32,782 nucleotides of DNA, from NCBI GenBank assembly GCA_018817915.1, contig JAHISX010000075.1:1-32782 (forward strand), in the 5' to 3' direction. Made by a program: the position numbers and the translations under genes. The notes beneath the pieces are model-generated. The model had not been told where the DNA came from, searched no databases, and saw nothing but the letters and a program-made list of their open reading frames with translations. The DNA is from Bacillota bacterium (GTDB taxonomy: Bacteria > Bacillota_I > Bacilli_A > Acholeplasmatales > Acholeplasmataceae). Positions 24,153 through 29,661 of the stretch are shown one piece after another; positions within the stretch are counted from its first letter, which is position 1; every line of letters starts with the position of its first letter.

Positions 24153-24584
24153 CTATTTTTTCACAATCTTATCTAAATCAGCAAATGCAGGATGTGGACT
24201 CTTCTCTTTTTCAAAAAGAATTTCATTAGCATCTGGATGGTAGATGGTATACGGTTTTTCAGAAATAATATATCCAAAGACAATGTCAGTAAGTTCTAGT
24301 GGATCTGTTAGAGGATAATCTGACTCTAAAGAACTGCCAAATAGAATATCATCTTCGAAATCCATTGAATAAGGAACAGCTTTAAGTGTTTTTGAACATG
24401 CCATCTCCATATCCACATGAACGGATATTTTCATAAATAGCTCACCAGAAATAAATTCGAATTCACAATTGATTTTTGCGGGTTCAATTGTAAGTATATC
24501 TAATGTGTTTTCTATTTCTTTTGAATAATCATAAGTAAGCTCTATCGAGGTTTTTTCTTTGAGTTCATGCAATGCAATTTTCAT
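24153..24584 (-). CDS. yceD: YceD (DUF177) family protein
   Basis: This 143-residue protein matches DUF177/YceD, found directly upstream of rpmF in most bacteria. Plant members are needed for 23S rRNA accumulation, so a part in large-subunit assembly is likely, though the bacterial activity is not settled. Conserved parts are the central [22 protein letters not shown] strand pair (split here at 44-55 and 56-65), the acidic [15 protein letters not shown], and the C-terminal [13 protein letters not shown] block. The usual CxRC motif is reduced to CSKT, parallel to the loss of cysteines in the L32 gene beside it. GAGGTGAT five bases upstream sets the start. It leads the yceD-rpmF operon. Confidence 0.88.
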
Positions 24585-26572: not shown

Positions 26573-26614
26573 ACTTTACGACTTAATTTATTAATCATAT
26601 AATAAGCGTCTTTA

Positions 26615-26665: not shown

Positions 26666-27067
26666 ATGTTAACTTTCTTAAAACTTTACGCCGTCTCATT
26701 TGTAATTTTCTTTGCTATTGATTTGTTTTGGTTGGGTATAGTTGCTAAAAAACTGTATCAAACAGAAATTGGACATTTGCTAAAAACTGATGTGAATTGG
26801 GTTGCTGCAATGTTATTTTACTTATTATTTATTGGCGGTCTAGTTATTTTTGTTTTAATGCCTGCTGTTGAAGCTGGTAATATTTGGAAAGCTGTTTTAT
26901 TAGGAGCCCTATTTGGATTTATAACGTATGCTACTTATGATTTAACAAATCTAGCTACTTTAAAAGATTGGCCACTTAAAATCACAATTATCGATCTGTT
27001 TTGGGGTACTTTCCTTGGAACATCGACAAGTACTGTATCATATTTAGTTTATAATCTTCTATTTTGA
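26666..27067 (+). CDS. DUF2177 family membrane protein
   Basis: This 133-residue protein has four hydrophobic segments: LYAVSFVIFFAIDLFWLGIV, AAMLFYLLFIGGLVIFVL, AVLLGALFGFITYATYDL, and a C-terminal stretch around FWGTFLGTSTSTVSYLVY. Pattern and length fit DUF2177, small inner-membrane proteins of unknown role. The FFAIDLFWLG, GALFGFITYATYDLTNLAT and IIDLFWGT blocks are the conserved core, with acidic residues buried in two membrane segments. AGGAGG seven bases upstream supports the start. It heads an operon with the DAK2-DegV fusion (eight bases after it) and a DUF1295 protein, so the operon has two membrane proteins and one probable fatty-acid enzyme. Confidence 0.85.
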   Translation: MLTFLKLYAVSFVIFFAIDLFWLGIVAKKLYQTEIGHLLKTDVNWVAAMLFYLLFIGGLVIFVLMPAVEAGNIWKAVLLGALFGFITYATYDLTNLATLKDWPLKITIIDLFWGTFLGTSTSTVSYLVYNLLF

Positions 27068-27075
27068 GGTGAGAC

Positions 27076-28851
27076 ATGTCTGAGTATTTATTAACAAATG
27101 AATTGATATATAAATCATTCATCTTTGGAGCTCAAAACGTTATCAAAGAAAAAAACAATTTAAATGCCATCAATGTATTTCCTGTACCAGATGGAGATAC
27201 TGGAAGTAATCTTGCTTCCATGATGACAAGCATCATCGAACGTTCTAAATTAGGAGCAACAAGTGAGGAAACCATTCAATCCATTGTTGATGCTGCAATC
27301 GTAGGTGCTAGAGGTAACTCTGGGATTATTTTTGCTGAATACATTTATGGATTCTCATTAGCTTTAAAAAATAATTTAATAGATGAAGATACATTTATTT
27401 CTCTTTCTGAGAATGCATCAAATTATGCTTATCAAGCAATTGCTGTACCTGTCGAAGGCACAATGATTACATTAATGAGATCTTGGGTTAGTGCTTTGAA
27501 GAAGTTTAAGAATGTCGCAACCACTTTTATTGAATTAATGAATAAAGCATATGAGTTTTTACTGTTAGAATTAGCTAAAACTACAGAAATGCTTGCTGTA
27601 TTAAAAGATAACAAGGTTGTTGATGCAGGAGCAAAAGGTTTTGTTCACTTCATTGATGGCTTTATTAGAGCCTTAAAAGGTGAAGAAATCACACTTGAGA
27701 TTGAACCTATTGAAGACATTGAACAATTACATGTTGATCATTTAGAAGATTCACAAAATCGTTATTGCACTGAAGCGCTTGTTAGAGGAACTGATCTTGA
27801 TCTTAATAAAATCAAAGCTGAACTCTCTTCTTTTGGTGATTCATTAGTTGTTGCAGGTAGTACAAGAACTCTGAGAGTTCATATTCACAGCAATCATCCA
27901 GATGAAGTCTTTGAATACCTTGATCAAATGGGTAGAATCGTTGAACAAAAAGTTGACGATATGAAAAGACAGTTTGAAACTGCAAATCATAAAAAATATC
28001 CAATTGCACTAGTGACTGATTCAATTGCAGATCTTCCTGAAGATCTTATCGATCAGTATCAAATTCATATGTTTCCTTTAAACCTTCTTGTCAATGATAC
28101 AAACTATTATGATAAGTTGACCATCCAAAGCTCACGATTCTATGAATTGATGGATAGTGCAAAAGTTTATCCATCATCGAGTCAACCGAATGCAAAAGCA
28201 TTAGAAAACTATTTCTCATTTTTAACGACTTATTATAAGGAAATTATCGTTGTTACTGTCTCACAAAATATGAGTGGTACCTATCAAGCATTTGTTGATG
28301 CAGCTTCAAAATTTGATCAAACAAAGATTACGGTCATCAACTCCAAACAAAATTCAGGTGCTGAAGGTTTAATCGTACTTAAAGCTGCTCAAATGGTCGA
28401 TCTAGGTTTGAACTATGATGATATTGTAGAAAATATTAGAAAATTAACAAATCATTCAAAAATTTTAGTCAGTGTTAAAACTTTAAAATATATGGTTCGA
28501 GCAGGTAGAGTAAGTAAAGTGACTGGGCTTATAGGAAAAATCATGAATTTAAAACCTGTCATTTCAATTGATGGTGAAGGAAATGGCATTATTTTTGATA
28601 AAGCACTCAGCTTAAAATCGAGTAATAAGAAAATTCAAGCTCATATTGAAAGTATTATGGAAGAAAGTGGAATTGAATCTTATGCTATTGTTCATGCAAA
28701 TGCAGATCAAAGAGCATCAGAATATGCACAACGATATGAGAAAATCATTGGTAAAAAACCTGAATATATTATGAACATATCAACAATTGTTGCGATGAAC
28801 GCAGGTATAGGAACTGTTGCTATCGCTTATATCAAAGGAGATAAATCATGA
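27076..28851 (+). CDS. DAK2-DegV fusion, a FakA/FakB-like fatty acid kinase candidate
   Basis: This 591-residue protein joins two parts normally made as separate proteins. Residues 1-200 are a DhaL/DAK2 kinase domain with [10 protein letters not shown] (37-45) and GARGNSG (78-84). Residues 225-300 match the middle domain of FakA, with the zinc ligands Cys231 (YCTE) and His269/His271 (VHIHSN). From about 308 to the end there is a DegV domain, the fatty acid-binding FakB type: [11 protein letters not shown] (Ser316), [23 protein letters not shown] and IVHANA. The C-terminal domain of FakA is absent, its place taken by DegV. By family, FakA phosphorylates a fatty acid held by FakB, feeding outside fatty acids into phospholipid; doing so in one chain is an inference. 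The start follows GAGGTGA. Confidence 0.88.
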
Positions 28852-29630
28852 ACTTTTTAGTTAATGCAATTGTATTATTCATCTTCTTTCTTATTTTCTT
28901 TGTGATTGCACAAATCAAAAAGAATAATGGATTAGCAGATATGGCTTGGGGATTAGGTTTTGTCGTAGTTGCACTTACAGGTTTAATTTATACAGGCATC
29001 TATACATTACCGGCTGTCGTAGTTACTGGTTTAGTCATGATATGGGGATTTAGATTGTTCTTCTTCATAGGGCTTAGAAATTGGAATAAACCTGAAGATT
29101 TCAGATATGTTGATATGCGTAAAAAATGGAAAACAAATATTCCATTGAAAGCATTCTTAAAGGTGTTTATGTTACAGGGCATTCTACTTTATATCATTTC
29201 ATTACCCATTCAACTCGTAAATCTGAATGCAACTCCTTTGAGTATGAATTCAAGCTATACAGTCTTAATTCTAGGTGTTATATTATGGCTCTTTGGATTT
29301 TATTTTGAAGCTGTTGGTGATTCACAATTAAAAGCATTCAAAAAAGATCCTCAAAATAAAGGGAAAATCTTACAAACTGGTTTATGGAAATTCACAAGAC
29401 ATCCAAATTATTTTGGTGAAGCAGTGATGTGGTGGGCAATCTTTGTAGTCTCTATTTCTGGATTTGAATTAATTAATCTAGCAGGTATTGTTGGACCTAT
29501 CCTAATTACTTATCTTTTACTCTTTGTATCTGGTGTTCCATTATTGGAAAAGAAATATAAAGATAATGCATTATTTCAAGAATATGCTAAAAAGACATCA
29601 ATCTTTATACCAATGCCACCTAAAAAATAA
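28848..29630 (+). CDS. DUF1295 membrane protein (steroid reductase/ICMT-like fold)
   Basis: This 260-residue membrane protein belongs to DUF1295, related to 3-oxo-5-alpha-steroid 4-dehydrogenases and isoprenylcysteine methyltransferases, whose C-terminal half binds a nucleotide cofactor. It has about six or seven hydrophobic segments. The conserved cofactor region is [19 protein letters not shown] at about 182-200, with the RHPNY motif, and [20 protein letters not shown] follows near the C-terminus. The [12 protein letters not shown] segment near the N-terminus is also characteristic. Its start overlaps the preceding stop in an ATGA, so it is translationally coupled to the DAK2-DegV gene, and a lipid-related substrate is a fair guess. 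The real reaction is unknown. Confidence 0.85.
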
Positions 29631-29633
29631 TTT

Positions 29634-29661
29634 AAAGATCTCAATTGAGATCTTTTTTTAT
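29634..29661 (+). terminator. Intrinsic terminator of the DUF2177 operon
   Basis: AAAGATCTCAA and its exact complement form an 11-base-arm palindrome (29634-29655) running into T. It lies three bases after the DUF1295 stop. Confidence 0.9.

Follow-up and report, generated by a model that had tools for sequence, protein, structure and literature searches.

A DAK2-DegV fusion protein of Bacillota as a candidate single-chain acyl kinase in a DUF2177/DUF1295 gene cassette

The gene at positions 27076-28851 of the window (the whole stretch of DNA that was analysed, 32,782 nucleotides) encodes one protein in which a DAK2 kinase domain and the middle domain of the fatty acid kinase FakA are joined to a DegV/FakB-type domain. 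Our preferred reading, to which we give a probability of about 0.6, is that this fusion is a single-chain acyl kinase that works in a DUF2177/DUF1295 cassette beside ordinary FakA/FakB and probably processes or re-uses membrane fatty acids. The fusion is retained across many Bacillota, Listeria among them, next to the two membrane proteins and often a photolyase, and it is probably a second, self-contained route of fatty acid activation.

Domain architecture and conserved residues of the fusion

The gene is one open reading frame with an ATG start and no internal stops, and the strand opposite to it is stop-rich. The features of the gene and of its operon are as follows.

26575-26603, + strand: promoter-like site before the operon, TTTACG-17-TATAAT, 10/12 consensus matches
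26666-27067, + strand: DUF2177 membrane protein of 133 aa, with which the cassette begins (Pfam PF09945, E 5e-46)
27076-28851, + strand: DAK2 - FakA middle - DegV fusion protein, 591 aa (open reading frame, Pfam, NCBIfam, homologues)
27181-27663, + strand: DAK2 (DhaL-like) ATP-binding kinase domain, residues 36-196 (Pfam PF02734, E 4.8e-29)
27757-27978, + strand: FakA middle (zinc/dimer) domain, FakA-like_M, residues 228-301 (Pfam PF21645, E 3.6e-23)
28003-28836, + strand: DegV/FakB-type domain, residues 310-587 (Pfam PF02645, E 1.1e-64)
28848-29630, + strand: DUF1295 membrane protein (steroid 5-alpha-reductase-like), 260 aa (Pfam PF06966, 1.2e-79; Steroid_dh, 1e-9)
29634-29655, no strand assigned: bidirectional terminator-like hairpin closing the operon, with a 9-pair stem and, on each strand, a T-rich tail behind it

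Pfam thus finds in a single frame all three domains that the original prediction had placed in one chain, and the C-terminal match covers profile positions 2-279 of 280. The NCBIfam scores of the protein are below the cut-offs of FakA (NF038248, 184 bits against 975) and YloV (TIGR03599, 262 bits against 396) and above that of the DegV domain (TIGR00762, 243.5 bits against 99.7). In comparison with solved structures, the first 300 residues resemble FakA of 7w7h and the FakA kinase-domain structures, and the last 280 residues resemble FakB1, FakB2 and DegV. An AlphaFold2 model of the whole chain, built on an alignment of only four close sequences, reached a mean pLDDT of 44.5 and a pTM of 0.38.

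FakA, also known as YloV, is the kinase subunit of bacterial fatty acid kinase, and it shares with the fusion the DAK2 domain, the zinc-binding middle domain with its Cys-His-His set and a C-terminal domain of the DegV superfamily. The kinase residues D39, D41, T42, N45, N81, S82 and D183 and the middle-domain residues C231, E233, H269 and H271 do not vary in 57 of 57 fusion sequences; Cys231, His269 and His271 are those whose retention had been pointed out from this one sequence. By analogy with FakA, the middle domain probably dimerises the fusion. The two proteins differ in that the fusion occupies a separate tree branch, scores under both the FakA and YloV cut-offs and carries a complete FakB-type domain at a position where canonical FakA has a domain that is without tunnel segments and does not bind fatty acid (PMC9136124). 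FakA_NL, which consists of FakA_N and FakA_L and is without FakA_C, phosphorylates FakB-bound fatty acid with a KM for FakB that is about tenfold higher (PMC9136124).

The original prediction had regarded the C-terminal domain of FakA as unrelated to DegV, which is wrong. The crystal structure of Staphylococcus aureus FakA_C has two subdomains related to FakB but lacks three segments, those that form the roof over the tunnel for the fatty acid (PMC9136124). The FakA-like_C profile PF13684 matches the DegV region of the fusion at 2.7e-9 and a Listeria homologue of the fusion at 1.4e-16, and HHalign relates FakA_C to free DegV with an E-value of 1.2e-7. The prediction was nevertheless right that FakB stands here in the place of FakA_C, as a full DegV domain with all three tunnel segments is found at that position. 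Mapped onto S. aureus FakB1 (a 27-62, b 164-185, c 264-273), the segments are residues 334-368, 469-490 and 569-578 of the fusion, and they are present in 57/57 fusions with lengths of 34-36, 22 and 10. By sequence, the C-terminal domain is FakB-like.

The fatty acid-binding motifs ascribed to this domain are kept only in part. The equivalents of FakB1 Ser95 (S400) and of Arg173 (R478), the latter required for the kinase reaction (PMC8892158), are invariant in all 57 fusions, and the position of Thr62 is Ser in 48 and Thr in nine. However, His270, a member of the carboxylate hydrogen-bond network of FakB1, is replaced by N575 here; across the 57 fusions the position is Asn in 41, Ser in 11 and His in five, against His in 25 of 26 free DegV sequences. 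As Asn or Ser stands there in 52/57, the substrate or its binding may differ, and this change together with the cassette points to a substrate acid that may be out of the ordinary. The position of Arg205, reported to be completely conserved in FakB and to dock both FakA and the membrane (PMC8892158), is L511 here and Leu, Phe, Ile or Met in 57/57 fusions, whereas Arg occupies it in 14 of the 26 free DegV proteins sampled. Arg205 is also the membrane-docking residue of FakB1, and its loss counts to some degree against the preferred reading as far as the loading of the domain with fatty acid is concerned. Compared with S. aureus FakB1 and FakB2, the fusion therefore has in common the DegV domain over 278 residues, the Ser95 and Arg173 equivalents and the tunnel segments, but it is joined to a kinase, is without Arg205, has mostly Asn or Ser for His270 and branches apart from the 26 free DegV proteins.

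Distribution of the fusion and coexistence with ordinary Fak

Searches for the fusion covered one phylum, plasmid records and, in one scan by peptide pattern, genome contigs. At the strict threshold, matches were found in 39/160 genomes of the order, 49/395 of the class sample and 25/392 of the phylum sample, the three samples overlapping. Of the 39 positive genomes in the order, most have a full-length fusion in a single frame, and a few have partial ones at contig ends or with a stop; single-frame homologues extend down to 33% identity. The full architecture is present in named records of Listeria monocytogenes, L. innocua, Enterococcus raffinosus and Acetoanaerobium noterae. The peptide-pattern scan found the fusion in three Acholeplasmataceae metagenome-assembled genomes, which are probably those of loci L011, L014 and L015, as the proteins agree in identity and coverage. 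In one genome (G016:C26:14733-17070, locus L025) the fusion is split into two overlapping frames and the adjoining DUF1295 gene is broken too, reflecting either sequencing errors or a decaying cassette.

The possibility that a frameshift or an assembly error had joined two genes, raised with the original prediction as a danger to it, has nothing in its favour beyond the unusual architecture. Full-length homologues in single frames from dozens of independent assemblies, including Listeria and Enterococcus raffinosus records described as complete, rule out such an artefact, and its probability is negligible. The same homologues answer the question, posed at the outset, of whether DAK2-DegV fusions exist in other genomes.

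In the tree of the kinase-plus-middle part, 36 of 36 sampled fusions lie on one side of a branch apart from FakA, and in the tree of the DegV part all 36 likewise lie apart from free DegV, each with an SH-aLRT of 100; both trees are quick and unrooted and have long branches. They fit a single, undated origin of the fusion. The dN/dS values of three pairs are 0.04-0.19 in both halves, at high dS, and both halves are, on these sequences, under purifying selection.

The search for separate genes of the pathway found fakA, plsX and plsY, all in the genome of the window: a canonical FakA on contig C32 (Pfam FakA-like_C, 1e-79), PlsX and PlsY, plus six free DegV proteins. A second middle-domain gene of FakA length is present in 22/24 fusion genomes; for the other two, none was found in G247 and the frame is short in G006. 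The fusion as a replacement of ordinary Fak was thus rejected. The original prediction had also held that a separate full FakA/FakB set could make the fusion redundant. Such a set is present, but redundancy does not follow from it: in the two domain trees the fusion branches separately, and these 22 genomes keep it beside FakA, which argues that it runs parallel to Fak and is not plainly redundant. Two genomes encode a FakA-type middle domain alone, in frames of 90 and 84 aa (G039:C1:649585-649815 and G427:C25:5906-6136), the former about 1.4 kb from a second DUF1295 gene.

The DUF2177-fusion-DUF1295 cassette and its neighbourhood

Open reading frames and Pfam bear out the DUF1295 and DUF2177 proteins that had been noticed in the operon, and these partners turned out to be more informative than the original prediction suggested. 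The DUF1295 gene overlaps the end of the fusion by 4 nt. In comparison with shuffled sequence, promoter-like sites are no more numerous in the region than expected by chance, and for the site before the operon the position alone is suggestive. At most homologous loci, with fusion identity down to 33%, DUF2177 is just upstream and DUF1295 just downstream, with stops and starts often overlapping. Of the 46 genomes of the order in which DUF2177 exceeds its cut-off, 38 have the fusion; DUF2177 is thereby present in 38/39 fusion genomes, the 39th (G092) having a truncated DUF2177 at a contig end, versus 8/121 genomes without the fusion. Seven of these eight have DUF1295 directly adjoining (G002:C37:61462-62617, G034:C1:727090-728231, G093:C34:680-1812 and the pairs in G094-G097), so the membrane pair can stand without the fusion, and its middle gene has been either lost or never inserted there. 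The cassette is looser in distant members, with no adjacent DUF2177 at three loci (L125, L129 and L132).

Further genes were observed around these loci. The window's genome has a second, more distant DUF1295 paralogue (G000:C38:12752-13438, a 302-aa frame), and two DUF1295 genes are also found in many relatives; in G482, a second DUF1295-like gene of 36% identity (L126:8827-9708) lies directly upstream of the DUF2177 gene of the cassette. A 143-aa gene at 24153-24584 of the window has no Pfam match at 0.001, looks YceD/DUF177-like by eye only and is retained by close relatives at the same position (cluster c6).

A cyclopropane synthase had been suspected near the Bacillota cassette, but no cfa was found among the ten neighbours scanned around it, and the recurrent extra neighbour is a photolyase instead. 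A gene of the DNA photolyase family lies within about 5 kb of the fusion in 7/24 genomes (G025, G033, G035, G046, G087, G181 and G247, the match in G247 being weak). Its arrangement varies: it may stand upstream or downstream, be divergent, or fall between genes of the cassette. Genomes of 1.2-2 Mb have about one photolyase each, and the adjacency is far above chance, with the reservation that related genomes are not independent. In G181, a run of genes for cobalamin adenosyltransferase, the photolyase family and a DUF1722/thiouracil-desulfurase-like protein is found downstream of the fusion (L131:8738-11488), with DUF2177 further on.

The Listeria locus, with photolyase, DUF2177, a "DegV family protein" and DUF1295, has the same fusion and gene order at 34% fusion identity; it differs in that the photolyase is directly upstream of DUF2177 in both Listeria, whereas in the genome of the window it is on another contig, C40. 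The photolyase of L. monocytogenes is lmo0588 (PMC9087598), and the gene order suggests that lmo0589-0591 are the cassette. In the literature, lmo0591 belongs to the unit LMRG_00271-LMRG_00273 (PMC6737072) and appears among the predicted membrane proteins of a study of the sigmaB regulon (PMC2248587); none of the open-access papers found for lmo0588-lmo0591 mentions lmo0589 or lmo0590.

In Proteobacteria, the neighbours of DUF2177 and DUF1295 include cyclopropane synthase, DUF1365, an FAD oxidoreductase and rpoE-chrR. The ChrR-sigmaE singlet-oxygen lipid operons (cfa, DUF1365/UfaO, FAD oxidoreductase, DUF1295, DUF2177, photolyase) have DUF1295 and DUF2177 in common with the cassette, and in Legionella lytica a photolyase is also found in the DUF2177/DUF1295 neighbourhood. 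They differ from the cassette in being without the kinase fusion and in having a Cfa-type methyltransferase and further genes that were not seen near the fusion. DUF1365 is a domain of the furan fatty acid enzyme UfaO (PMC7380195), the singlet-oxygen regulon of Rhodobacter sphaeroides RpoE includes phrA and cfa (PMC7074977), and in Chlamydomonas the CFA1, CFA2, DUF1365, DUF2177 and DUF1295 genes are co-induced under singlet oxygen (PMC4067076). The Chlamydomonas paper was the only one found in the open-access literature in which DUF1295 and DUF2177 occur together, and none was found there that joins DAK2, DegV and fusion. It is possible, and we suggest it tentatively, that the cassette is the Bacillota counterpart of the ChrR-sigmaE lipid operons, modifying or repairing membrane acyl chains damaged by light or oxygen. 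In that case the fusion would re-activate the freed acids in place, would have a function separate from ordinary Fak and would also be a natural covalent FakA-FakB complex.

Function of the fusion and competing explanations

The function is most likely that of a self-contained acyl kinase, because the kinase and zinc residues are complete and the three tunnel segments are kept. Moreover, with FakB tethered, FakA_C and the Arg205 wedge would no longer be needed, and both are absent here. The self-contained fatty acid kinase of the original prediction is accordingly retained as a predicted function, and the fixed one-to-one stoichiometry it proposed is true of the chain.

The analysis shows the domain content, the conservation of residues, the distribution, the cassette and the coexistence with FakA; for the working of the fusion we infer kinase activity, transfer within the chain, a dimer, a substrate and a role under stress. 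The DAK2 domain would bind ATP-Mg, and the zinc-bearing middle domain would complete the active site and probably dimerise the chain. The C-terminal FakB-type domain would hold a fatty acid or a similar lipid carboxylate, the carboxyl group of which would be phosphorylated within the same dimer, in cis or across it. The tethered carrier would no longer need the Arg205 wedge by which free FakB docks on FakA_C, and the acyl phosphate product would feed PlsY or PlsX, both present in this genome. From the neighbouring genes we infer the role of DUF1295 and DUF2177 and a response to light or oxygen stress: the cassette probably processes membrane fatty acids in need of modification or repair, or brings them back into use, and light or oxidative stress may be one occasion for this.

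Three other explanations start from the same domains. The one we take most seriously, although it is unlikely, is a one-chain kinase for a different lipid, such as an acid that has been modified or oxidised, or a lipid made by the DUF1295 and DUF2177 proteins, rather than for common fatty acids. The systematic change of His270 to Asn or Ser, the loss of Arg205, the fixed partnership with a reductase-like DUF1295 protein and the position of DUF1295 and DUF2177 beside cyclopropane and furan fatty-acid genes in Proteobacteria all speak for it, but the Arg173 and Ser95 equivalents and the tunnel segments are those of fatty-acid carriers. It is less probable still that the protein is a second FakA, with the DegV domain as a docking platform like FakA_C and a kinase serving the free FakB proteins of the cell. 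The DegV domain does lie exactly at the position of FakA_C, itself a tunnel-less relative of FakB (PMC9136124), and six free DegV proteins would be at hand in the window's genome. Against this, a docking platform would need neither the tunnel segments nor the equivalents of Arg173 and Ser95, which are kept here, and the free FakBs are already served by ordinary FakA.

That the fusion is in practice no enzyme but a fatty-acid sink or sensor appears very improbable. The idea draws on FakB4 of Streptococcus pyogenes, for which a role in binding acyl groups that do not go into phospholipid synthesis was proposed (PMC10138225). Against it, no ATP-, metal- or zinc-binding residue of the kinase part varies among 57 divergent sequences, and the kinase half also has low dN/dS.

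There is dispute over how FakA and FakB meet while phosphate is transferred, and an active complex has yet to be solved (PMC11617999). A natural one-chain FakA plus FakB that is without the docking Arg205 would offer a direct handle on this question. It would also tie DUF2177 and DUF1295, two families of unknown function, to acyl activation, a connection that would be testable in culturable species such as Listeria innocua.
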